Source of the DNA: Saprospiraceae bacterium | GTDB lineage: Bacteria > Bacteroidota > Bacteroidia > Chitinophagales > Saprospiraceae | DNA: 64,000 nt | Assembly (NCBI GenBank): GCA_020629515.1 | Contig: JAHDDE010000016.1 | Span: forward strand, 1-64,000 | Direction of reading: 5' to 3' | In this document: positions 24,086-36,752 of the stretch, piece by piece | How the letters are laid out: every line of letters begins with the position of its first letter | Numbering within the stretch: position 1 is the stretch's first letter | Notes under the pieces: model-generated | The model's input: the letters and a program-made list of their open reading frames with translations, nothing else | Told to the model about the DNA's origin: nothing | Database searches by the model: none | Translations under genes and position numbers: made by a program

Positions 24086-25465
24086 CTACAGATTTTTTAC
24101 TTCGGAGAGTAATGATTGTATACTATCCTTAGCATCGCCAAAAAACATTTTAGTTTTCTCGTGGAAAAAGAGTTGATTTTGTATACCCGCATAACCTGGA
24201 CTCATACTTCTTTTTAGGACTATAACATGTTTTGCATCCCAGACATTGAGTACTGGCATACCGTATATAGAACTCGTTGGATCGTCCACTGCTGCGGGAT
24301 TAACGACATCATTAGCCCCTACTATAACAACTACATCTGTACTCGGCAGTGCAGCATTGGCATCATCCAAATCTAAGAGCTTAGGATATGGGACATCAGC
24401 TTCTGCGAGCAATACATTCATATGACCTGGCATCCGCCCTGCTACTGGATGTATTGCATACTTTACGTCAACACCATTTGCCTCAAGTGTGTCATCTAAC
24501 TCTTTTAAAGCTTTTTGTGCTTGTGCAACAGCTAATCCATATCCAGGAACAAACATCACCGATTGAGAATAATATAGAAGTATAGAGGCGTCAACGGCAC
24601 TTGTAGTTTTTGCAACTTGATCATCAGCTCCCTGAGCAGCCCCACCTGCAGCAGAAAATCCTCCTATTAATACATTGAAAAGTGAACGATTCATAGCTTG
24701 GCACATCAATACCGTTAAGATAGTACCTGATGCGCCGACAAGAATACCCCCAACTAACATCAAATTATTATCATAAATAAGACCTGCAGCTGCTGCTGAT
24801 AATCCAGTAAAAGAGTTCAATAAAGAAATTACTACTGGCATATCCGCACCTCCAATTGGAGCAACAAAGGACCATCCATAAAAAAGACATAATACTAAAA
24901 ATGCTATCAGCAATGTATTACTTGCATTAGTCATAGCTAGATAGGTGAACATGCCTAAGACAATTATCAGTAAGAATTGATTGATAATATTGTGCTTAGG
25001 CCAAGTTACTTGGCTGTCCCAGATCTTTCCATCTAATTTGAGATAGGCCAACATACTTCCCGTAAAGGCAACACATCCAATCAATAAAGCAAATAGAGAA
25101 ATTACCTTGCCTCCCGTATCAAGAGATACGGTACTCAATTCTACAATAGACAATATAGCGGCACATGCTCCCCCTAATCCATTAAAAACGGACACCATTT
25201 GTGGCATATCTGTCATCTTAATTTTCTTGGCAACTAACCAGCCTATTGTTGCACCAAGCACAATGCCTCCTGCTATCCAAACATAATTTCCTTCTCCATC
25301 TATTCGATTATCACATAAACTGCCTGCTATTCCTATAGCCATACCTATAGCCGCCAGTGTATTACCTTTTCTTGCACTGTCAGGAGAGCTCAACAATCTT
25401 AAACCCCAAACAAATAAAATCGCACCAATTAAATAGGCGATATCAACTATAGTTGTGAATATCAT
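24086..25465 (-). CDS. pntB: NAD(P) transhydrogenase subunit beta
   Basis: A 459-aa protein whose N-terminal half (about 1-265) is a string of transmembrane helices (proton channel dII part) and whose C-terminal half is the NADP(H)-binding dIII domain, with GYGLAVAQAQ, HPVAGRMPGHMNVLLAEA, VVIVGANDVVNPAA and KRSMSPGYAGI. With the alpha subunits it transfers hydride from NADH to NADP+ driven by the proton gradient. It is last of a three-gene operon. Confidence 0.96.
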   Translation of the reverse strand: MIFTTIVDIAYLIGAILFVWGLRLLSSPDSARKGNTLAAIGMAIGIAGSLCDNRIDGEGNYVWIAGGIVLGATIGWLVAKKIKMTDMPQMVSVFNGLGGACAAILSIVELSTVSLDTGGKVISLFALLIGCVAFTGSMLAYLKLDGKIWDSQVTWPKHNIINQFLLIIVLGMFTYLAMTNASNTLLIAFLVLCLFYGWSFVAPIGGADMPVVISLLNSFTGLSAAAAGLIYDNNLMLVGGILVGASGTILTVLMCQAMNRSLFNVLIGGFSAAGGAAQGADDQVAKTTSAVDASILLYYSQSVMFVPGYGLAVAQAQKALKELDDTLEANGVDVKYAIHPVAGRMPGHMNVLLAEADVPYPKLLDLDDANAALPSTDVVVIVGANDVVNPAAVDDPTSSIYGMPVLNVWDAKHVIVLKRSMSPGYAGIQNQLFFHEKTKMFFGDAKDSIQSLLSEVKNL

Positions 25466-25497
25466 ATTCTCTTATTAAAGTGTTTTGTAAGATTCTC

Positions 25498-25809
25498 CTA
25501 TTTCTTCTTTTTCTTAAACATTTCGAGCATCCTATCTGTCACAGCAAACCCTCCCACAACATTTATCATACCTAATGCAATAGCTATAGCGCCAAGTATT
25601 AATGAAAAGTAGTCATCAGATGCGGATCTCCTGATAAGTATGATTGCACCAATTATAATAACCCCACTTATGGCATTGGCCCCAGACATCAGAGGTGTAT
25701 GAAGGACTGTTGGCACTTTAGAAATCACCTCAAATCCTAAGATCACTGTAAAGATCAGGAGGTAAATCAATAATAGATTATCACTTATGAATTGCATAAA
25801 CTGGGTCAT
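25498..25809 (-). CDS. pntAB: NAD(P) transhydrogenase subunit alpha part 2
   Basis: A 103-aa membrane protein with three hydrophobic helices and the conserved VPTVLHTPLMSGANAISG segment. It corresponds to the C-terminal membrane part of fused PntA, here a separate gene as in the three-gene form of the enzyme. It starts one base after the end of the pntAA gene. Confidence 0.94.
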   Translation of the reverse strand: MTQFMQFISDNLLLIYLLIFTVILGFEVISKVPTVLHTPLMSGANAISGVIIIGAIILIRRSASDDYFSLILGAIAIALGMINVVGGFAVTDRMLEMFKKKKK

Positions 25810-25810
25810 A

Positions 25811-26890
25811 CTACGATTTTTTAGAAATGATGGATTTACTTAATATTTCATCTTCAGAATTCATGTCTATCGTCCCATCTCGGACTATATGTTTCAAAAA
25901 ATTATGAATGTTATTGCCATATAAAGTGCTTGCATCTTGAGGCATCCTATTAGCCAAGTTAGAATCACCAATTATTTTTACTCCATTGTGATCAACAACC
26001 TTGTTGTCTTCACATATAGCACAATTACCTCCTGTAGAGGCGGCCAAATCAACAATAACGGATCCTGATTTCATAGCTTCGACAGTCTCCTTAGTTATCA
26101 ATTTAGGTGCTGGTCTCCCTCTCAATTGGGCGGTGGTTACCACAATATCCGATGCTATCGCCTTCTCTTGGATTAACTGTGCCTGCCTCATTTTATATTC
26201 CTCTGTCTGCTCTACTGCATAACCGCCGGCATCTTTATCATCTGTAGCACCTTCTACTTCTACAAACTTAGCTCCTAAACTTTGTACTTCTTCTTTAACC
26301 GCGGCTCTGGTATCAAATGCTTCAACCATGGCTCCTAGCCTTCTGGCTGTAGCAATAGCTTGAAGTCCAGCTACCCCAGCACCGATAACCAACACTTTAG
26401 ATGGTTTGATGCTTCCTGCAGCTGTAATCATCATTGGCATGTATCTCGGCATATATTGTAATGCTGACAATATAGATTGATAACCTGCTATGGATGCCAT
26501 AGAAGACAACACATCCATGGACTGAGCCAATGAAGTTCTCGGAATCATATCAAGGCTAAAGACATTTAGATTTTTTGCTTGTAACCCCTCTCCAATCTTA
26601 GCATCATTAAAAGGAGCATATTGACCAATTATTATAGCACTATCCTTTACAGAATTATATTCTTGATCTGTGATATCCGGAGATATCTGAACTATGATAT
26701 CTGCCCCTGACAGGATATCCTTACGAGATTTAATAGTAACTGATTCATAATCACTATCTCTAAAATAACTACCATCCCCTATTCCTGATTCAATCCATAC
26801 TTCATCTAAAAACTTAAGAAGTTTAGTCACATTAGAAGGTACTATTGGAGAAATATCAGAGTTATTTTCTTTTAAATATGCTATTATCAT
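25811..26890 (-). CDS. pntAA: NAD(P) transhydrogenase subunit alpha part 1
   Basis: A 359-aa soluble NAD(H)-binding dI subunit, with the Rossmann motif VLVIGAGVAGLQAIATARRL, the AFDTRAAVKEEVQSLGA segment typical of alanine dehydrogenase/PntA proteins, and GSVIVDLAASTGGNC. It is first of the pntAA-pntAB-pntB operon; 125 bp separate it from the divergent membrane-protein gene. Confidence 0.95.
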   Translation of the reverse strand: MIIAYLKENNSDISPIVPSNVTKLLKFLDEVWIESGIGDGSYFRDSDYESVTIKSRKDILSGADIIVQISPDITDQEYNSVKDSAIIIGQYAPFNDAKIGEGLQAKNLNVFSLDMIPRTSLAQSMDVLSSMASIAGYQSILSALQYMPRYMPMMITAAGSIKPSKVLVIGAGVAGLQAIATARRLGAMVEAFDTRAAVKEEVQSLGAKFVEVEGATDDKDAGGYAVEQTEEYKMRQAQLIQEKAIASDIVVTTAQLRGRPAPKLITKETVEAMKSGSVIVDLAASTGGNCAICEDNKVVDHNGVKIIGDSNLANRMPQDASTLYGNNIHNFLKHIVRDGTIDMNSEDEILSKSIISKKS

Positions 26891-27018
26891 TAGTACTTTA
26901 TTAGAGTAGATATCGAAGATAATTAACCATTTTCTTTGGAAGCTTTTATTACAACAATTTTATCTAACTATTCTCAATTGACGAGTAATTACAGCAACAA
27001 TTTCTATTTTAGCGATTG

Positions 27019-27417
27019 ATGATGATTAAAACCAAAGAGAGATTAGCCAGAGTAAATGAGTTCATAGATATTAAAATGGGCTTCTTAGGAGCCATTTTTA
27101 TGGGTTCTATTGTCTTTTGGATTAATCACGACCATGGTTGGGACCTTGCCCTTGTCGCTGGTCTCAAACAACTTTCATATACCTTATTTTTTGGAGGGCT
27201 TTTCCTCAAGATGGCGGAGAACATTGCTATTTCTCGCCAATCTAGAAGATGGGCTATTCTACTGGGTGGAGTGATCCCAATGTTCTGCACAGCATTCTTG
27301 ACGTATATCGTTCATGCGTTTAAAGGAACCCCCGAACCCATACATAGTACTATACCAACTATTATTTTCGCTTGGATTAGTTTTACATTTTGGAGCTGGC
27401 ACAAAACAAGATCCTAA
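27019..27417 (+). CDS. Small integral membrane protein, unknown function
   Basis: A protein of about 132 aa with four predicted transmembrane helices (about 20-38, 45-65, 75-97, 107-127) and a basic N-terminus. Two ATGs (27019 and 27022) follow an in-frame TTG at 27016; an ATG is preferred. TATTTTAG at 27005-27012 resembles the -7 promoter box but is very close to the start. I do not recognise a characterised family. It faces the pnt operon divergently and is convergent with the monooxygenase gene. Confidence 0.72.
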   Translation: MMIKTKERLARVNEFIDIKMGFLGAIFMGSIVFWINHDHGWDLALVAGLKQLSYTLFFGGLFLKMAENIAISRQSRRWAILLGGVIPMFCTAFLTYIVHAFKGTPEPIHSTIPTIIFAWISFTFWSWHKTRS

Positions 27418-27459: not shown

Positions 27460-28581
27460 TTAAGCGCTACCACATAGATGGTCTAATATCAATTGCGAAT
27501 CACTATTAATTGTCCCTAATATTCCTCCTAACTTATAATTATCAAAGCCTAAAAAATAAGCGCCTTCTAATTCCCCCTTCCCAATAGGTGAATGTGGCAA
27601 TCCATTTTCATCAACATATTGAGATATTTGAGGAAAGAATTCTTGAATCGCTGCCCTATAACCCGTTGCCAAAATAACTGACTGAATAGTAATCTCTTCT
27701 CCACCATTAAAAACAACACTTGATCGATTAAATCTTTCGATCCCTGGCTTGACCTTGATTTTTCCTGATTTTACTGCAGCCATCGTACCTATATCAACTA
27801 TAGGTGTTTTTCCAGTTTCTCTCAATTGCTGTGCAGGGTGCATTGCACTAATCTTCAAGCCATATTTTTCTAAATTGCCGAAATAGATTTTCCTGATTTG
27901 CGAACCCAACCAATCTCCTAAACCAAAAGGCAGTTTCGCCAGTTGCTTAGAAGTCACTTGAACAGGCCGACCATTTAAGTCTCTTGGCACCACGCTTATT
28001 GGACTTCTGACTGATGCATATACCTCCACATCATGTTCACTCAAATCTAAACATAATTCAGCTCCAGTATTTCCAAAACCCACTACCAGCGTTTTCTTCC
28101 CAATGAAAGGTTCATAGTTTTTGTACTGTCTACTGTGTAATATTTCACCTTCAAACTCATTTTTACCCGGCCAATCTGGTATATGAGCTACTCTATTCAC
28201 TCCAGTCGCAACAATAATATTCTTAGCTTGATAAGAATTACTATCTGTCAAGACCTGATAGTAACCATTTTCTTTGGATATAGATACTACCTGCTGTTTG
28301 TATATAGGTATAATATTGAAGTGCTCCATATAACCTTCAAAATATTGCACCAATTGATCTTTCGACACATAAGTGGGATACTCTTCAGGAAATGACATAT
28401 GTGGCAAATGAGAAAATTGTTTGACCGTGTGCAGATGCAGTCTGTCATAATGATTTCTCCAAGCATTACCCGCATGATCTGATCCTTCTATCAAAGTGTA
28501 GTGGAGCCCAGCTTGAGATAAACGTCCGGCCATAGCAAGTCCTGCAGGACCTGCTCCTATTATTAAATTCTCCGTTTGCAT
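27460..28581 (-). CDS. Flavin-containing monooxygenase (class B, YUCCA-like)
   Basis: A 373-aa FAD/NADPH enzyme. FAD site LIIGAGPAGLAMAGRL near the N-terminus, a WRNHYDRLHLHTVKQF segment close to that of FMO/YUCCA proteins, the family signature FxGxxxHSxxY (FEGEILHSRQY), the NADPH site LVVGFGNTGAELCLDL, and ATGYRA near the C-terminus. Class B monooxygenases insert one O2 oxygen into N, S or ketone substrates; the signature is the FMO rather than the Baeyer-Villiger form. It starts 32 bp after the hydroxylase/CDGSH gene on the same strand, so it is probably in the same operon. Confidence 0.88.
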   Translation of the reverse strand: MQTENLIIGAGPAGLAMAGRLSQAGLHYTLIEGSDHAGNAWRNHYDRLHLHTVKQFSHLPHMSFPEEYPTYVSKDQLVQYFEGYMEHFNIIPIYKQQVVSISKENGYYQVLTDSNSYQAKNIIVATGVNRVAHIPDWPGKNEFEGEILHSRQYKNYEPFIGKKTLVVGFGNTGAELCLDLSEHDVEVYASVRSPISVVPRDLNGRPVQVTSKQLAKLPFGLGDWLGSQIRKIYFGNLEKYGLKISAMHPAQQLRETGKTPIVDIGTMAAVKSGKIKVKPGIERFNRSSVVFNGGEEITIQSVILATGYRAAIQEFFPQISQYVDENGLPHSPIGKGELEGAYFLGFDNYKLGGILGTINSDSQLILDHLCGSA

Positions 28582-28613
28582 GAATGCTTTATTGGTGCCA
28601 CTTTTTTTCCTAA

Positions 28614-29684
28614 CTAAATCGAAAGATGCGAATCATCACAATAAGGAGGAGTTTTGGTCAACTTGCATGTACAAATCGATACTTTTCGATCAGATTTTAT
28701 CTCAAATTTTAGTGGCTTAATTTTGGTTCCATTGTGATATCCATTGCAGAATGGCTGATCTCTGCTATATCCACATTGACAGTATAGATAAGTACCAGCT
28801 TTTAATTCTTGCTTGAATGGTTCTGTACCTAAATTTTTTTCTTTTTTGAAATCCTTGTGTAGCTCACTATCTTCTTTTGGAGACTTTACAAATGGATACA
28901 ATAAATGCGAGTACCATGGATCTTTGGGATCTTCTAATAGCCCGAATTTCTCTGGATAAGCGCGTGTAAATTTGGCTGTTCCAAACATTTGGTCCCACAA
29001 TGAAAAAGTATTGCCAAAATTACCATTAGGGTCACTGACATTGTCTGCCATAGATGCGCCATGGTGCGAATAATGAAATGCTGGAGTTATAAAAATTCTC
29101 TCTATTACTGTAGCAATTGGACTCAGCCAGCTGTGTTTATATAGTATAGTGTCCCATGTCCATGTGCTGTGTGTACTGGTTACAACAATTTGCTTAAAGA
29201 TTAAGCCAAAAATGACTGCTGGAGCTAAACCTAAGTAGGTACATATAGCGCCCCACCATAGATTTGGCATCAAAAGATAGTATACCCAAGAATTGCGATA
29301 ACTGACCAATATACCCATATCTTCTGCAGCATGGTGGACTCTGTGGTGTTTCCATAGCCATTCGTTTTCATGAGCTGAGCGATGATACCAATATTGGGAT
29401 ATATCGTCTATCAAAAGATAAAATGGAATGCCTATCCACAAGGACCAAGAGCCTAAAGCATTTGAAAATTGTGGTAACAATGCATCTCCAATAAATACAA
29501 TAGCAAGAACCTGAATAGTTTTAGTAAATGCCACCACAAAAAATCCCATTAATTCGAGTGTCCAGTCAGTTTTATCTCTGTGATCATTATGATAATGTCC
29601 TAATATTACCTCACCTGCTGCAAAAAAGAGTAATATTCCAATTACGGCATAAACGTCAATGTTCGGTATACTTAACCAATCCAT
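28614..29684 (-). CDS. Fatty acid hydroxylase-family protein fused to tandem CDGSH iron-sulfur domains
   Basis: A 356-aa protein in two parts. Residues 1-260 form a membrane hydroxylase of the sterol-desaturase/fatty-acid-hydroxylase superfamily, with the di-iron histidines HRSAH (101-105), HHRVHH (113-118), His172 and HYSHH (204-208). Residues about 298-356 carry two CDGSH-type 2Fe-2S motifs: Cys302/304/313 with His317 (PFCNGYH), and Cys338/340/349 with His353 (PYCDDSH). A clear linker is present and the frame is unbroken. The iron-sulfur tail could supply electrons to the di-iron centre, which is an inference. It is divergent from tetR, with a palindrome between them. Confidence 0.87.
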   Translation of the reverse strand: MDWLSIPNIDVYAVIGILLFFAAGEVILGHYHNDHRDKTDWTLELMGFFVVAFTKTIQVLAIVFIGDALLPQFSNALGSWSLWIGIPFYLLIDDISQYWYHRSAHENEWLWKHHRVHHAAEDMGILVSYRNSWVYYLLMPNLWWGAICTYLGLAPAVIFGLIFKQIVVTSTHSTWTWDTILYKHSWLSPIATVIERIFITPAFHYSHHGASMADNVSDPNGNFGNTFSLWDQMFGTAKFTRAYPEKFGLLEDPKDPWYSHLLYPFVKSPKEDSELHKDFKKEKNLGTEPFKQELKAGTYLYCQCGYSRDQPFCNGYHNGTKIKPLKFEIKSDRKVSICTCKLTKTPPYCDDSHLSI

Positions 29685-29723
29685 AATATATGTTTTGTTT
29701 TATTCGACTAATTATTACTAATA

Positions 29724-29739
29724 TAGTATAATCATACTA
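29724..29739. promoter_or_regulatory. Candidate TetR operator
   Basis: A perfect 6-bp inverted repeat, TAGTAT and ATACTA with a 4-bp spacer, sits in the 65-bp divergent region, 10 bp before the tetR ATG. A site here could repress both tetR and the divergent hydroxylase-monooxygenase unit, as is usual for TetR-family regulators. The region is AT-rich, so chance is possible. Confidence 0.45.
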
Positions 29740-29749
29740 ATTTTAAAAG

Positions 29750-30373
29750 ATGAAAGGAAAAACTAAGCTCAAAATCATCAGAAAATCCATAGAACTCTTC
29801 AACCAATACGGATTTTCTAATATCAGCTTAGGGAAAATCGCTGATGAGCTAAAACTCAGTCCAGGTAATTTAACCTATCACTACAAAAAGAAAGATGATC
29901 TGATGAATGCGGTCTATTCTTACTTTCAATCGGAGATTAATAAAGTGACGCCTCAGGAAGAAATCTTTGCGGATTTACATATGATAGATATTCAAGCAGG
30001 GGCTTTTTACAATTTCCAAAAGCAATTCCAATTCTTTTATTTGGATTTATTAGAGATCGAAAGAGCATTTCCCACCATTGCCACAGCACATTATATACAC
30101 ATTGAGAAACAGATATCGAGATTATTAAGTGTTCTGATTTATAATGTAGGTCATGGATCATTAATTAAATACCGTACCCAAAAGGTATATAATCATCTGG
30201 CACGACAACTATGGATGACAAGTGTATACTGGATGTCGCAATCTATGATACGAGGTCAAAAACATAAAATGCAGGACCTCAAAGATGCTTTATGGTATCA
30301 GATTTATCCTCATCTCACCAATAAAGGATTGTCAGAATTGGCTGTTTTTAACAAAATTGGAAAATTTATATAA
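29750..30373 (+). CDS. TetR/AcrR-family transcriptional regulator
   Basis: A 207-aa protein with an N-terminal TetR helix-turn-helix (NISLGKIADELKLSPGNLTYHY, about residues 23-45, read in two halves) and an all-helical C-terminal ligand/dimer domain rich in aromatic residues (FYNFQKQFQFFYLDLLEIE). It is divergent from the hydroxylase gene and 62 bp upstream of the aldehyde dehydrogenase gene, so it most likely controls the cluster in response to a hydrophobic substrate. Confidence 0.88.
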   Translation: MKGKTKLKIIRKSIELFNQYGFSNISLGKIADELKLSPGNLTYHYKKKDDLMNAVYSYFQSEINKVTPQEEIFADLHMIDIQAGAFYNFQKQFQFFYLDLLEIERAFPTIATAHYIHIEKQISRLLSVLIYNVGHGSLIKYRTQKVYNHLARQLWMTSVYWMSQSMIRGQKHKMQDLKDALWYQIYPHLTNKGLSELAVFNKIGKFI

Positions 30374-30435
30374 GTATTTATCTCCTTTGCAGAATCATAT
30401 TTTACTAATTTCAGAATGTCAAAAATTATAATCGT

Positions 30436-31863
30436 ATGGAAACCGCAGTTAAAATTTCTCACCGAACAGAGCAGATCTCACAAATTTTTAGAGCTCAACA
30501 AATTAATCAACATGTCATAGCACGCACAAGTGCCACCGAAAGAATAAAAAAACTAAAGAAGCTACATAAAGCAGTCTTAGATAATAAAGAAGCTATAAGG
30601 AAGGCATTATATGAAGACTTTAAAAAACATCCCAGCGAGGTGGATCTTACAGAAATCTATCCTGTAACAGGAGATATAAAACATACGATAAGTCATATCC
30701 AAAAGTGGATGAAACCTGAAAAAGTAGGTACTCCTATGGCCCTTATTGGTTCAAGCTCATGGATACATTATGAGCCAAAAGGGGTGTGCCTTATTATCTC
30801 TCCTTGGAATTTTCCAATTAATCTGACTTTTGGCCCCTTGGTTTCTGCTATCGCAGCAGGTAATTGTGTGATGGTCAAGCCATCTGAGCATACACCAGCC
30901 GCATCAGCCATTATGGGTAAAATACTTCGGGATATTTTTGATGACAACGAAGTAGCTCTGGTTGAAGGAGGAATTGAAACTTCTAAAGACTTATTGGATC
31001 TACCCTTTAATCATATATTTTTTACTGGTGCTCCTTCTGTTGGTAAAATTGTGATGGCAGCTGCAGCCAAAAACCTTACCTCTGTAACTCTTGAATTAGG
31101 TGGTAAATCTCCAACTATCGTAGATGAAACGGCCAATCTAAAAGCAGCAGCCAAAAGAATAGCTTGGGCCAAATGCATCAATAATGGGCAGATTTGCATT
31201 GCTCCAGACTACATATATGTACACGAGAGTAAAATGCAAGAACTCATCAAACAAATTGATTTGAACATCAAAAAAATGTATGGTGATAACATTGGCCAAT
31301 CTGACTCCTACTGTCGGATTGTAAATAATAAACACTTCAATAGAGTAAAAAGCTACATGGATGATGCATTAGAAAATGATATTAAAATTGAAAGAGGTGG
31401 CAGTATGAATGGTGCTGAAGATTTTATAGAGCCAACAATAGTGTCCAATATCAATACAGAGATGGATCTCATGATGCACGAGATTTTTGGCCCTCTACTA
31501 CCTATTGTAAGTTACACATCATTAGATGAAGTCATAAACAAGATAAATGAGAAAGAGAAACCACTCGCCCTATATATATACAGCAAGAAAAAGAAAAATA
31601 TAAATCACATATTGAATAATACAAGAGCCGGAGGAACCTGTATAAATCACAGCGCCATTCACTTTTTCAATAATAACCTACCTTTTGGAGGAGTAAATAA
31701 TAGTGGTATTGGCAAGGCACATGGAGAGTTTGGCTTTAAAGCGTTTTCCAATGCACGAGGAGTTTTGAAACAATGGTCTCCAATGAGTGCTATAGAAAAC
31801 ATGATGCCTCCTTACAATAATGTCAAACAAAAATTGATTGATCTAAGTATCAAATATTTTTAA
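30436..31863 (+). CDS. Aldehyde dehydrogenase, fatty-aldehyde type
   Basis: A 475-aa ALDH superfamily enzyme that oxidises aldehydes to acids with NAD(P)+. Catalytic residues are visible: Asn125 (SPWNFP), Glu220 (TLELGGKSP) and Cys254 (NNGQICIAPDY), plus the FFTGAPSVGK cofactor loop. The length, short for a hydrolytic ALDH, and the C-terminal hydrophobic end (NVKQKLIDLSIKYF) resemble class 3/fatty aldehyde dehydrogenases. Its stop overlaps the ATG of the DUF3604 gene (TAATG), so the two are translationally coupled. Confidence 0.92.
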   Translation: METAVKISHRTEQISQIFRAQQINQHVIARTSATERIKKLKKLHKAVLDNKEAIRKALYEDFKKHPSEVDLTEIYPVTGDIKHTISHIQKWMKPEKVGTPMALIGSSSWIHYEPKGVCLIISPWNFPINLTFGPLVSAIAAGNCVMVKPSEHTPAASAIMGKILRDIFDDNEVALVEGGIETSKDLLDLPFNHIFFTGAPSVGKIVMAAAAKNLTSVTLELGGKSPTIVDETANLKAAAKRIAWAKCINNGQICIAPDYIYVHESKMQELIKQIDLNIKKMYGDNIGQSDSYCRIVNNKHFNRVKSYMDDALENDIKIERGGSMNGAEDFIEPTIVSNINTEMDLMMHEIFGPLLPIVSYTSLDEVINKINEKEKPLALYIYSKKKKNINHILNNTRAGGTCINHSAIHFFNNNLPFGGVNNSGIGKAHGEFGFKAFSNARGVLKQWSPMSAIENMMPPYNNVKQKLIDLSIKYF

Positions 31864-33764
31864 TGACAGTATCAACTGGCGCAAAGAAAGTCTTTATAGC
31901 CATAGTGATATTAGCCATATTAGGGTTGATTGCTTGGAGAATATTCAATCCCCCTGGACCCATTCTTGATGAGGTAGAAAACGCCGTACGAGATAGGGCC
32001 GCTAAAGATTGGGAGACTCTGGAAGCCCAAGTCCCTAAAAATGAGATGAATGAGGTGTACTTTGGAGACATGCATGTTCATACTGCATTTTCATTTGATG
32101 CTTATATAGGTGGAACTACGGCAAGACCTACTGATGCCTACAGATTTGCTCAAGGAGATGCGATAGATGTACTGGGGACTCCTGTTAAAATCGAGCGACC
32201 ATTAGATTTTGCGGCTGTGACCGATCACTCCGAATACCTAGGTGAGCTCTATACTATCAACGAACCTTCAGCAGTCGGTCATAACACCTTACATCCTCGA
32301 GTTATCAGGGGAATAGGTGCAGATACGGCTAGACAAAACGAGTTTTTTCAAAAAATGGTTAGGAATACTGGTAATGAAGTCAAAAAACATCCTCGGTTTT
32401 TTAGAGGATATAAAACTACCATAAAAGCTTGGGATATAGCTATTAGTGCTGCTGAAGAACATTATATACCTGGCAAGTTTACCACATTTGCCGCATATGA
32501 ATGGACTCTTGGTGTCAATCTCGCTCATGCACATAGAAATGTGTTTTTCAAGGATATGGTTTTGCCAGATTACCCCATTAGTGCCATAGAAGCTACTAAT
32601 GAAGAACAATTGTGGCAATCACTTGACCAATTTAGATCGCAAGGTGCCACCGTAATGGCTGTGCCACATAATAGTAACCTCAGCGAAGGAACAGCATTTC
32701 CTACCACTCGTGTCGACGGCAGTCCTATTGATAGGGAATATGTCCAAATGAGAAACAAAAATGAACCATTAGTTGAGATACATCAAGCCAAAGGCAATTC
32801 GGAAGTATTTGCACAATTCTGGGAAAACGATGAATTTGCCAACTTTGAAAACTACAATCAAGGGACTCCAGAATTAAGAAATTATGTGCGACATGCATTA
32901 AAAAGAGGACTGGAGTATGAAGAAAAATTAGGAATTAATCCATACAAATATGGATTAATAGGCAGCACAGATACACATAATGCAACTCCTGGTAATACAG
33001 AGGAGACCGACGATTATATAGGCAATCACTGTCAGGTTGATTTAAGGCCAGAAACGCGTGTTCGTAGAGATTGGATCTTAGAACCCTCGGTCAAAACCTA
33101 CAAAGCAGTCAATCCAGGAGGATTGATGGCTGTATGGGCTAGATCCAATACGCGATCTGACATATATGATAGCATGACTAAAAAAGAAACTTACGCCACT
33201 AGTGGCGGGAGGATCAAGCTACGGTTTTTTGGAGGATTTGATTTTAAGGATCATTATGATAGTTATGAGGACTTAGTAAAAGAAGGGTATGAACATGGCG
33301 TCAGCATGGGCAGTGACTTAGACTATGAGCTTTCTAATATCAGAGCTCCAAAATTTATAGTTTGGGCTTCAAAAGACGCTATGTCCGCCAAACTTGAAAG
33401 GATACAGATAATCAAAGGATGGTATAAAAATGAAGAGCTAAACGAGAAGGTATATGATATTGCTCTGTCCAACGGAAGAAGTCCTACTCTTCATAGTTCT
33501 GCACCTGATCTTGGTGATATAGTCGACTTATCTACGGGCGAAGTTGATCCAGACGCTGGAGATATAGAATTAAGCACTGTATGGACCGATCCAGATTTTG
33601 ACCCCAATATTAGGAGCTTTTATTATGCCCGAGTATTAGAAGTAAAGACTCCTCGTTATAGTCTATGGGATGAAATAAAGCATGGAGTAAAATATCCTGA
33701 CGAAGTACCTAAAACCATTAAAGAACGAGCATGGAGTTCTCCAATTTGGTATAGCCCAAAATAA
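31863..33764 (+). CDS. DUF3604 protein, PHP-like metal enzyme
   Basis: A 633-aa protein with one N-terminal membrane helix (about 9-27, VFIAIVILAILGLIAW) and a large exported domain. Metal-binding motifs of the PHP type are clear: GDMHVHTAFSFDAY (HVH at 71-73), VTDHSEYLGE near residue 120, and GSTDTHNATPGNTEE. The family is widespread in marine bacteria, often near catabolic genes, and its reaction is not established. It probably works in the periplasm or on the membrane face. It is co-translated with the aldehyde dehydrogenase gene. Confidence 0.88.
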   Translation: MTVSTGAKKVFIAIVILAILGLIAWRIFNPPGPILDEVENAVRDRAAKDWETLEAQVPKNEMNEVYFGDMHVHTAFSFDAYIGGTTARPTDAYRFAQGDAIDVLGTPVKIERPLDFAAVTDHSEYLGELYTINEPSAVGHNTLHPRVIRGIGADTARQNEFFQKMVRNTGNEVKKHPRFFRGYKTTIKAWDIAISAAEEHYIPGKFTTFAAYEWTLGVNLAHAHRNVFFKDMVLPDYPISAIEATNEEQLWQSLDQFRSQGATVMAVPHNSNLSEGTAFPTTRVDGSPIDREYVQMRNKNEPLVEIHQAKGNSEVFAQFWENDEFANFENYNQGTPELRNYVRHALKRGLEYEEKLGINPYKYGLIGSTDTHNATPGNTEETDDYIGNHCQVDLRPETRVRRDWILEPSVKTYKAVNPGGLMAVWARSNTRSDIYDSMTKKETYATSGGRIKLRFFGGFDFKDHYDSYEDLVKEGYEHGVSMGSDLDYELSNIRAPKFIVWASKDAMSAKLERIQIIKGWYKNEELNEKVYDIALSNGRSPTLHSSAPDLGDIVDLSTGEVDPDAGDIELSTVWTDPDFDPNIRSFYYARVLEVKTPRYSLWDEIKHGVKYPDEVPKTIKERAWSSPIWYSPK

Positions 33765-33813
33765 TAAAGACTGCTTCTACTAAAAATTTTAGCTTGATAT
33801 AAACTTTATAACG

Positions 33814-34707
33814 ATGACCATACTAAATACTCCTGCAGCAGCCTTTGACAACTTGGTAGATTATCCCTTTAAGGGTAACTACATGGATATAGGAGAGGGA
33901 TTGACTATGCACTTCTTAGACGAAGGTGTATCTACTGGCCCTGTAGTATTGCTGTTGCATGGCGAACCTAGCTGGTCCTATTTATATCGCAAGATGATCC
34001 CTGTATTTGCCAAGCAAGGCTATCGGGTCCTAGCTCCTGACCTCATAGGGTTTGGTAAATCTTCTAAACCTGCAGAACAATCAGATTATACTTATGCTCG
34101 CCATATCTATTGGATGAGTACCTGGCTTATAGAATTAGGGATAACAGAGATTAACCTATTTTGTCAAGATTGGGGTGGTATGATAGGATTAAGATTGGTT
34201 GCTAAATATCCTAATCATTTTGCGCGAATTGTCGTTGCCAACACTGGTCTTTCGACGGGTGATCATACCTATCCCGAAGCATTTTTGCAATGGCAAAAGT
34301 TCAGTCAAACTGTTGATATTCTTCCAGTAGGGAAAATTTTACAGAACAGTACAGTGAGAAAGCTAAGTCCTGCAGAAGTAGAAGCATATAAAGCACCATA
34401 TCCAGACAAAAGCTATATGGCTGGAGCTAAAATTTTTCCTTCATTAGTACCGACTCAACCGAATGATATTGAATCGCAAAACAATAGAGACGCATGGGCA
34501 GTATTGTCATCTTGGGAAAAACCACTTTTGACCTTGTTTAGTGATTCTGATCCGATTACGAAAGGTGGTGAAAAACCGTTTCAGAAATTAGTGCAAGGTG
34601 CACAAAATCAGCCTCACCAAATCATCAAAGGAGCGGGTCACTTTCTGCAAGAAGATAAAGGTCCAGAAATAGCCAAAATAATGATTGACTTCATAAGAAC
34701 ATCCTAA
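33814..34707 (+). CDS. Haloalkane dehalogenase, DhlA-like (HLD-I)
   Basis: A 297-aa alpha/beta hydrolase closely resembling DhlA in its key parts. Oxyanion segment HGEPSWSYLYRKM (Glu51), nucleophile Asp119 with halide-binding Trp120 (QDWGG), a second candidate halide Trp160 (FLQWQKF), an acid Asp244 or Asp246 (FSDSDPIT), and base His276 (GHFLQED). The nucleophile is Asp, not Ser, and the acid position after strand 7 fits subfamily I. It would hydrolyse a carbon-halogen bond to an alcohol. Epoxide hydrolase or fluoroacetate dehalogenase activity is less likely given the Trp pair. It lies 49 bp after the DUF3604 gene. Confidence 0.86.
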   Translation: MTILNTPAAAFDNLVDYPFKGNYMDIGEGLTMHFLDEGVSTGPVVLLLHGEPSWSYLYRKMIPVFAKQGYRVLAPDLIGFGKSSKPAEQSDYTYARHIYWMSTWLIELGITEINLFCQDWGGMIGLRLVAKYPNHFARIVVANTGLSTGDHTYPEAFLQWQKFSQTVDILPVGKILQNSTVRKLSPAEVEAYKAPYPDKSYMAGAKIFPSLVPTQPNDIESQNNRDAWAVLSSWEKPLLTLFSDSDPITKGGEKPFQKLVQGAQNQPHQIIKGAGHFLQEDKGPEIAKIMIDFIRTS

Positions 34708-34714
34708 GAATACT

Positions 34715-35125
34715 ATGCTTTTAAATAATCAAAAACATCCTACTAAGGATCAATTTAGACAAATGGTAGCTTCTTTTCCAAAGAACACGCCAGTCACTAT
34801 GGTCAATATATTGAGATTTAATAAGTCAGTAGACGGCTCCGGAGAATCTGGAGAAGAGGCTTATGCTCGCTATGGAAAAAATGTGCTGCCATTTATGAAA
34901 AGTGTAGGGGCAAAATTATTATGGCGAGGGCGCTTAAACAGTACCCTAATAGGAGACAGTGAAGGTTCTCCTCAATTGATTCTGTTAGTGGAATATCCCA
35001 CTATCGACCACTTTATCAAGATGACATCAGATCCTCAATATGTAAAAATATCCGAGGATAGAACTGTTGCACTTGAATATGGCGGTCTCTGGGCATGTCA
35101 AGAAGAGTACTCCCTCTTAAAATAA
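34715..35125 (+). CDS. DUF1330-family protein
   Basis: A 136-aa dimeric alpha/beta-barrel-like protein (ferredoxin-like fold) with PVTMVNILRFN, YARYGKNVLPFMKSVGAKLLW and LVEYPTIDHFIKMTSDPQY, all typical of DUF1330. Function is unknown; relatives often sit in catabolic operons. It starts 7 bp after the dehalogenase stop and is the last gene of the plus-strand cluster, ending 7 bp from the convergent guaB stop. Confidence 0.82.
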   Translation: MLLNNQKHPTKDQFRQMVASFPKNTPVTMVNILRFNKSVDGSGESGEEAYARYGKNVLPFMKSVGAKLLWRGRLNSTLIGDSEGSPQLILLVEYPTIDHFIKMTSDPQYVKISEDRTVALEYGGLWACQEEYSLLK

Positions 35126-35132
35126 TTAGACA

Positions 35133-36617
35133 TTATCCTCTACGCGTATAATTAGGGGATTCTTTAGTGATGCTAATGTTATGTGGATGGGACTCAATCA
35201 CACCAGAACTTGTAATCTTAACCAACGGAGATCCTTGTAATGAGTTGATATCCTTAGCTCCACAATAACCCATGCTTGCCCGAAGTCCTCCCACATATTG
35301 TACCATCACCTCAGATATAGTACCCTTGTAAGGCACTCTACCCTCTATACCTTCTGGCACCAACTTCTTTACATCGTCTTCTGCATCTTGAAAATATCGA
35401 TCCTTAGAACCTTTTTGCATTGCACCTAATGAACCCATACCTCTATAGACTTTAAACTTTCGTCCGTCATAGATAACAGTTTCACCAGGAGCTTCCTCTG
35501 TACCGGCGAATAATGATCCGCCCATGATTGTACTGGCTCCCGCTGCTATTGCTTTAGCTATATCTCCTGTATATCTAATTCCCCCATCTCCGATAATTGG
35601 GACTCCTGCTTTGAGTCCTGCTTTGGCCGCATTCATTATCGCACTCAACTGAGGGACTCCCACACCAGCCACTATTCTAGTGGTACATATACTTCCTGGA
35701 CCAACTCCGACCTTTACCCCATCTACCCCATGATCAATCAATGCTTGTGCTCCTGCCTCTGTTGCGACATTACCACCTATAATTTGCAAGTCTTTAAACT
35801 TATTCTTTACTTCTTTAATCACATTGAGCACTCCTTGACTATGACCATGAGCGGTATCTATGATTATTACATCTACTCCAACCTCCTGGAGAGCCGTAAC
35901 TCTCTCAAAAGTATCTGAACTTACACCTACCGCCGCTCCGACTAATAGTCGTCCATGATTGTCCTTACTTGCGTTAGGATAACTCTCCACTTTGATGATA
36001 TCCTTGTATGTGATAAGTCCCATCAATGTATTGCTATCATCAACTACAGGTAACTTCTCTATCTTATGCTTTTGCAATATCGCTTCGGCTTGTTCAAGGT
36101 TGGTACCTATTGGTGCTGTTATTAGATTATCGGTTGTCATGATATCTTTGACAGTACGTCTGAGATTTGTCTCAAATCTCAGGTCTCGATTAGTCAGTAT
36201 ACCAACTAATTTTCTCTTATAGTCTATCACCGGTATACCCCCAATCTTATAAGTCCTCATCAAATCATGTGCATCTTGCAACGTTGCATCTGGAGTTAAG
36301 GTAACAGGATCTATAATCATTCCACTCTCTGACCTCTTAACTTTACGCACTTGATCGGCCTGATCAGAAATAGACATATTTTTATGTATTATTCCGATCC
36401 CTCCTTCTCGTGCCATGGCTATAGCTAATCCATATTCAGTCACTGTATCCATAGCTGCTGATATGATGGGAGTGTTAATCCACAATTCTCTTGTCAATTT
36501 AGATTTTATGGCCACTTCACGTGGTAAAACCTCAGAATACTGGGGAATCAAAAGAACATCATCGAAGGTAAGTGCCTCAACTATGGCAGGGAAGTTAAAT
36601 CTTGCAGGTTTTTCCAT
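35133..36617 (-). CDS. guaB: Inosine-5'-monophosphate dehydrogenase
   Basis: A 494-aa enzyme that oxidises IMP to XMP with NAD+, the committed step to GTP. The TIM barrel is interrupted by two CBS domains (about 95-210, with [14 protein letters not shown] and [15 protein letters not shown]). The active-site loop with catalytic Cys is [16 protein letters not shown], followed by [10 protein letters not shown] and the flap segment [17 protein letters not shown] 36617 is chosen; the frame runs up to a TTG at 36623. Confidence 0.97.
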
Positions 36618-36752
36618 GATCAAAAGTAAGACTATTCTAAAAAAATGAAAATCAGTTTATCAACGAAATATCAATGCAACTTCATTGATGAAGTGAATTA
36701 TTTCTAAATAGTTCAATAATTAATCCAAATTAGATTCTTTTTATTCAAAAGG

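Follow-up and report, generated by a model that had tools for sequence, protein, structure and literature searches.

Relationship to described systems

Alkane degraders carry a long-chain alcohol module made up of an AlkJ-type GMC alcohol dehydrogenase, the AlkH aldehyde dehydrogenase and the AlkK ligase. DhaA, from a second kind of catabolic operon, is a haloalkane dehalogenase (HLD) of the HLD-II type. The Rhodococcus operon that contains dhaA also includes a regulatory gene and genes for an alcohol dehydrogenase and an aldehyde dehydrogenase (PMC3414701). Here, we describe a divergent set of seven genes that shares features with both, found at positions 27460 to 35125 of a 64,000 nt stretch of Saprospiraceae DNA (the window; positions 1 to 64,000 of contig JAHDDE010000016.1, assembly GCA_020629515.1). 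We consider it fairly probable that the set is part of a TetR-repressed divergon and regulon that oxidises a hydrophobic alcohol or aldehyde to the acid and then to the acyl-CoA, with several enzymes delivering the alcohol.

Like the dhaA operon, the window combines a repressor, a dehalogenase and an aldehyde dehydrogenase (ALDH), which fits a route from halide through alcohol and aldehyde to acid. However, the dehalogenase in the window is of the HLD-I type and is a lineage-specific addition, the ALDH belongs to class 3, and two oxygenases and a DUF3604 protein are added. No alcohol dehydrogenase was detected in the cluster by Pfam scan. The resemblance to the Alk module is seen in relatives of the window, where a GMC oxidase, an aldehyde dehydrogenase and an AMP-binding ligase are found around the genes for the ALDH and the two oxygenases. 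The window differs from that module in its TetR control, in the dispersal of the steps around the genome and in its hydroxylase, which has a fused CDGSH domain and belongs to the FA_hydroxylase family, in place of AlkB with rubredoxin. An AlkB hydroxylase of the FA_desaturase type is not present in the cluster, as the window hydroxylase matches PF04116 and not the desaturase family in Pfam.

All seven genes listed for this region in an earlier note were found, and the features are as follows.

27460–28581, − strand: FMO-like FAD/NADPH monooxygenase (FMO), 373 aa; Pfam FMO-like, 2.8e-34; FxGxxxHxxxY signature
28614–29684, − strand: FA_hydroxylase-superfamily membrane hydroxylase fused to a double CDGSH [2Fe-2S] domain (FAH); Pfam
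29723–29740, no strand: putative TetR operator, ATAGTATAATCATACTAA; palindrome between the FAH and TetR genes
29750–30373, + strand: TetR-family repressor; Pfam TetR_N and PF13972
30436–31863, + strand: class 3 ALDH (fatty/aromatic aldehyde dehydrogenase); Pfam Aldedh and PDB relatives
31863–33764, + strand: DUF3604 protein, membrane-anchored, predicted PHP-fold metallohydrolase with a C-terminal beta-sandwich; Pfam, 7.8e-197
33814–34707, + strand: HLD, HLD-I type; NCBIfam PRK00870 model
34715–35125, + strand: DUF1330 protein; Pfam, 5.8e-8

FAH and then FMO are read leftwards, and TetR, ALDH, DUF3604, HLD and DUF1330 rightwards, from a divergent region of 65 bp. The genes on either side, one for a hypothetical protein (27016–27417, + strand) and one for IMPDH (35133–36623, − strand), converge on the set, and its limits are therefore clear. 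The description of several genes as coupled by overlap was overstated, as the only overlap is between ALDH and DUF3604 (TAATG) and the remaining co-directional gaps are 7 to 62 nt. Terminator-like sites across the region were not in excess over shuffled sequence.

A conserved palindrome and the extent of the proposed regulon

The palindrome TAGTAY-N4-RTACTA was present in the FAH/TetR intergenic region of all eight genomes examined that have this arrangement, which represent three genera. In the window, it extends to TTAGTAY-N4-RTACTAA with the outermost base mismatched. The 16 bp core occurs only once in the whole window genome (3.9 Mb in 98 contigs), and likewise in G001, G123, G267 and G334, whereas a control with the same pattern read backwards gave 2 to 11 matches in each genome. 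Its position is also constant in the three congeners, about 10 bp upstream of the TetR start codon and about 40 bp upstream of FAH, and the TetR recognition region, SPGNLTYH, is conserved across orthologues. We infer that TetR binds the palindrome, which would make it an autoregulated divergent operator.

A second genome of the same genus, G002, contains three copies of the palindrome. One lies between FAH and TetR. The other two are the only perfect 18-mers (TTAGTAY-N4-RTACTAA) in 5.0 Mb; one precedes an amidohydrolase-DUF3604-DUF3604 operon by 16 bp and the other precedes a gene of the AMP-binding acyl-CoA ligase type by 17 bp. As G002 lacks DUF3604 at the FAH/TetR locus but has the same operator before DUF3604 genes elsewhere, DUF3604 and acid activation by the acyl-CoA ligase are probably members of the TetR regulon. 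The backward control gave four matches to the core in G002, so that counts alone are no proof of the extra sites there; these are instead supported by their location directly before start codons and by the genes that they precede. A weight matrix run over about 3.1 Mb of partly redundant sequence recovered one more promoter site that was not in the training set, located upstream of the SDR-MaoC-DUF3604 operon of a different Saprospiraceae metagenome-assembled genome (MAG; locus L253).

Sites with one mismatch were mostly inside genes. A weaker, one-mismatch operator, TTAGTAAAATCGTACTAA, was also found with the matrix, at G002:C1:66937-66954 (L243), 187 bp upstream of a SusC/TonB-receptor-like gene, and it is possible that this gene provides uptake for the regulon. 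A variant palindrome, TTAGTAAGACCTTACTAA, also recovered with the matrix, is common to the FAH promoters of three g95 genomes (L170 1449 in G331, L174 2601 in G301 and L179 1438 in G382), in which no TetR gene adjoins FAH. Copies of the palindrome in contigs C324 and C377 of G021 and C898 of G356 are in coding or convergent regions and were taken to be there by chance.

To our knowledge, and with incomplete coverage of the literature, the TetR operator, its connection in trans with DUF3604 and the CoA ligase, and the assignment of DUF3604 to the PHP fold have not been described previously. These candidate elements are what is new here; the chemistry is of a known kind.

Conservation of the gene set in relatives

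Gene pairs were counted as co-located when they were within 10 kb, for which the chance expectation is about 0.4% per genome. Both other genomes of the genus examined keep the grouping. The order in G001 is FAH-TetR-ALDH-DUF3604-HLD-DUF1330, with an extra alpha/beta hydrolase gene between DUF3604 and HLD and with FMO nearby, past one inserted gene. In G002, which has neither DUF3604 nor DUF1330 at this locus, it is FMO-FAH-TetR-ALDH-HLD, and the set is at the same chromosomal location, flanked by the transhydrogenase and IMPDH genes. The DUF3604 gene of G001 appears broken, but FMO, FAH and HLD in this 58%-complete assembly also have stops, and assembly error is likelier than decay.

FAH and ALDH were co-located in 11 of the 37 genomes that hold both, from six genera. 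Beyond the genus, the same FAH/TetR-ALDH divergon was found in G021 and four g115 genomes, and FAH-ALDH without TetR in three others. Co-location of FMO with ALDH was seen in 12/47 genomes from eight genera, and additionally in G073, which is from a different family, and in G021, where the genes are on contigs that apparently join. In G021, the 40 nt tail of contig C47 is located within the reverse complement of C375, 101 nt from its start, which is consistent with adjacency and is supporting evidence only. The numbers of genera are the safer figures here, since genomes that belong to the same genus are not independent. Outside the genus, the set thus appears as two recurrent pairs that share ALDH, and by gene order the class 3 ALDH is the hub. 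The overall arrangement exceeds chance, and the set is best described as a divergon with one repressor at its centre and not as seven partners that are each conserved independently.

In all four g115 loci (L182, L184, L185 and L186), a ThuA-family gene is downstream of ALDH and may be a lineage-specific member. At four further loci (L180, L181, L183 and L215), the CDGSH-hydroxylase gene adjoins a gene for a cyclic nucleotide monophosphate-binding (Crp-type) regulator and not TetR.

The oxidation enzymes and the dehalogenase

The closest solved structures to the ALDH are class 3 and fatty aldehyde dehydrogenases, and the catalytic Cys and Glu are present (GQIC at 251–254 and ELGGK from 220). 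A GMC oxidoreductase gene, the closest solved relatives of which include alcohol oxidases, adjoins ALDH or FMO in G262, G010, G073, G024 and G039. At L252, a GMC gene directly follows the DUF3604 gene that is, among the matches listed, the most similar to the one in the window. The window genome has a GMC homologue elsewhere, on contig C67, and its product could supply the alcohol-to-aldehyde step that the cluster lacks. An AMP-binding ligase gene adjoins FAH in G131. The same locus (G131:C137) has a sphingolipid delta4-desaturase-type gene (L201 12975–13922) directly after ALDH.

FAH has hydrophobic segments, as expected for a membrane protein, and its histidine boxes (HX3H, HX2HH and HX2HH; H101/H105, H114/H117/H118, H172 and H204/H207/H208) are invariant in 15 orthologues, as are the ligands of the double CDGSH domain (C302, C304, C313 and H317, and C338, C340, C349 and H353). 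Because all of the boxes and both sets of ligands have been kept, it is reasonable to suggest that the fused [2Fe-2S] domain is a built-in electron donor for the membrane oxygenase. No report of a hydroxylase-CDGSH fusion was found in the literature searched. FMO has the features of a class B flavin monooxygenase, namely two dinucleotide-binding motifs (GAGPAG at 9 and GFGNTG at 168) and FEGEILHSRQY at 143.

HLD scored 429.6 bits against the NF002043/PRK00870 model, for which the curated cutoff is 265. Residues E51, D119, W120, W160, D246 and H276 are invariant in 13 orthologues. From the roles in DhlA, we take D119 to be the Asp nucleophile, W120 and W160 the two halide-stabilising Trp, D246 the Asp acid and H276 the His base. 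The catalytic residues are therefore intact and dehalogenase activity is predicted. The nearest solved dehalogenases (6f9o, 4mj3 and 5esr), which are HLD-I enzymes, are similar over the full length and have the same catalytic residues, and the window HLD differs from them in its context, a TetR/ALDH3 divergon, which places it in a putative regulon of aldehyde chemistry. Orthologues elsewhere occur alongside genes for an acyl-CoA dehydrogenase, AMP ligase, thioesterase, P450 or enoyl-CoA hydratase. Haloalkane dehalogenases of organisms without a history of exposure to synthetic organohalogens are thought to use natural halogenated compounds (PMC6299022).

DUF3604 is a predicted PHP-fold metallohydrolase

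In Pfam, DUF3604 was the single family matched by this protein, with no PHP family up to E 1, and no meaningful PDB match was found with the single sequence or with a profile. The metal-site ligands of PHP enzymes occur in the order H-H-D-H-E-H-H-D-H. An AlphaFold2 model built from 44 sequences had a mean predicted local distance difference test score (pLDDT) of 91.4. With this model, Foldseek gave a borderline result, the best match being a PHP domain (E 1.2e-3), and in a VIA-align comparison the first 14 rows, running from Z 15.9 down to 7.2, were PHP-type proteins or polymerases that contain PHP, with the next fold at Z 4.2. Nine residues, H71, H73, D79, H122, E213, H224, H269, D370 and H372, follow the PHP order and are invariant in 44/44 DUF3604 sequences. 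Thus, in both fold and nine-residue metal site the model resembles the PHP-superfamily metallohydrolases (3e38, 2anu, Endonuclease Q and PsfC, 7rty), while it differs from them in the absence of a Pfam PHP match at sequence level, in an extra C-terminal beta-sandwich and in a membrane anchor. The beta-sandwich (residues about 450–633) is separate and its matches were weak and non-specific. Matches to designed TIM barrels covered only 29 residues and were attributed to chance. Given a hydrophobic segment at the N terminus, the body of the protein is probably on the periplasmic side. DUF3604 is therefore predicted to be a membrane-anchored PHP-fold metallohydrolase, the fold being a confident prediction.

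No relatives were recovered when genome contigs were first scanned with one DUF3604 protein alone. The family is large, with at least 585 confirmed relatives among at least 598 pattern matches. The nearest named relatives, among the matches listed, are from uncultured Saprospiraceae MAGs. No functional paper on DUF3604 was found in the literature searched. The predicted fold, the intact metal site and the shared operator make this widespread family a testable enzyme with a likely pathway. DUF3604 loci elsewhere (L216–L218 and L255–L265) sometimes include a sulfatase gene or tandem DUF3604 arrays.

A proposed route and its alternatives

In the scheme that we favour, TetR would sit on the palindrome of the shared divergent promoter region until released by a ligand, probably the substrate or an acyl product. 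At the core, ALDH3 would act on an aldehyde (long-chain, terpenoid or aromatic) and yield the acid. The aldehyde would come from an alcohol by way of the GMC alcohol oxidase that is near ALDH or FMO in several relatives and elsewhere in the window genome, and the acid would be converted to the acyl-CoA by the AMP-binding ligase, the gene with the same operator in G002. The CDGSH-linked membrane hydroxylase (from C-H), the dehalogenase (from C-X) and DUF3604 would be alternative suppliers of the alcohol, while FMO would add oxygen to some substrate. DUF3604, as a periplasm-facing PHP-type metallohydrolase, may cleave an ester such as a phosphoester. The palindrome with its distribution, the recurrent gene pairs and the invariant catalytic residues are seen in the sequences themselves. 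We infer the order of the reactions, the binding by TetR and the class of substrate, and the direction from C-H or C-X through alcohol and aldehyde to acid, which the earlier note had proposed, is likewise conditional.

A more specific version, which we put forward tentatively and regard as doubtful, gives DUF3604 the leading part. Periplasmic DUF3604 metallohydrolases would cleave an ester, perhaps a lipid phosphoester or sulfoester, and feed the hydrophobic alcohol so released into the GMC-ALDH3-acyl-CoA ligase route under one TetR operator, with the dehalogenase and the CDGSH-powered hydroxylase as further inlets. If true, this would be a catabolic regulon that has so far gone unrecognised.

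Several findings weigh against a single TetR-controlled oxidation route. HLD is found with ALDH, and FAH together with FMO, solely in this genus, and HLD and DUF3604 are away from ALDH in most relatives; the hydroxylase, dehalogenase and DUF3604 front ends may therefore also serve other pathways. DUF3604 genes of many bacteria are found with those for a peptidylprolyl isomerase and a HupE/UreJ protein (L216, L217, L218 and L255–L265), and the use of DUF3604 here would thus be a special deployment of a general enzyme. No alcohol oxidase gene was found in the window cluster, or in G002 at the threshold used, and the window genome itself did not yield an operator before a ligase gene. Scattering in related genomes, chosen beforehand as the evidence against a common system, was seen outside the genus for the dehalogenase, DUF3604 and the FMO-FAH pairing, but the ALDH-FAH and ALDH-FMO pairs recur. 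What survives of the idea of one oxidation system is the single regulator with its conserved palindrome, the ALDH hub with oxygenases and an alcohol oxidase, and the intact dehalogenase residues; seven genes forming one conserved pathway do not.

The main rival, to which we give a rather small chance, is that the genes serve lipid modification or detoxification and not catabolism, with the hydroxylase and FMO tailoring membrane lipids (of the sphingoid base, ornithine lipid or carotenoid type) and ALDH3 clearing fatty aldehydes from lipid turnover or peroxidation. The single NCBIfam relative of FAH is the ornithine-lipid hydroxylase OlsE, though far below cutoff, and lipid-related genes occur nearby in relatives: the desaturase-type gene after ALDH in G131, a KAS III gene after FAH in G137 and an RPE65-type carotenoid oxygenase gene near ALDH in G016. 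However, the operator before both the CoA ligase and DUF3604 in G002, the GMC oxidase and AMP ligase neighbours, and a repressor architecture that looks inducible all argue for the catabolic route.

It is less likely still that this is a haloalkane catabolic operon like that of Rhodococcus (PMC3414701), in which the repressor, the dehalogenase and the aldehyde dehydrogenase together serve to break down a halogenated alkane of natural origin and the rest is accessory. While the Rhodococcus operon unites the same functions, the gene order is TetR-ALDH-HLD, and HLD is well above the model cutoff with its catalytic residues intact, this explanation is weakened because the dehalogenase joins the divergon in this genus only. 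In g115, the divergon retains its repressor, operator, FAH and ALDH in the absence of HLD. In addition, the window operon has no alcohol dehydrogenase. A loose neighbourhood, in which useful oxidoreductases and hydrolases have gathered beside a repressor with no common pathway, would explain why all but ALDH-FAH-TetR and ALDH-FMO are scattered in most relatives and why DUF3604 and DUF1330 (the latter retained in G001) are absent from the G002 locus, but it is very improbable given the recurrence of pairs in several genera and the in-trans operator before DUF3604 and the ligase.

A split NAD(P) transhydrogenase (alpha, 4TM and beta; 24086–26890 in the window) adjoins the set and has been kept there in G002. 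It is probably a housekeeping enzyme, but it could supply NADPH.

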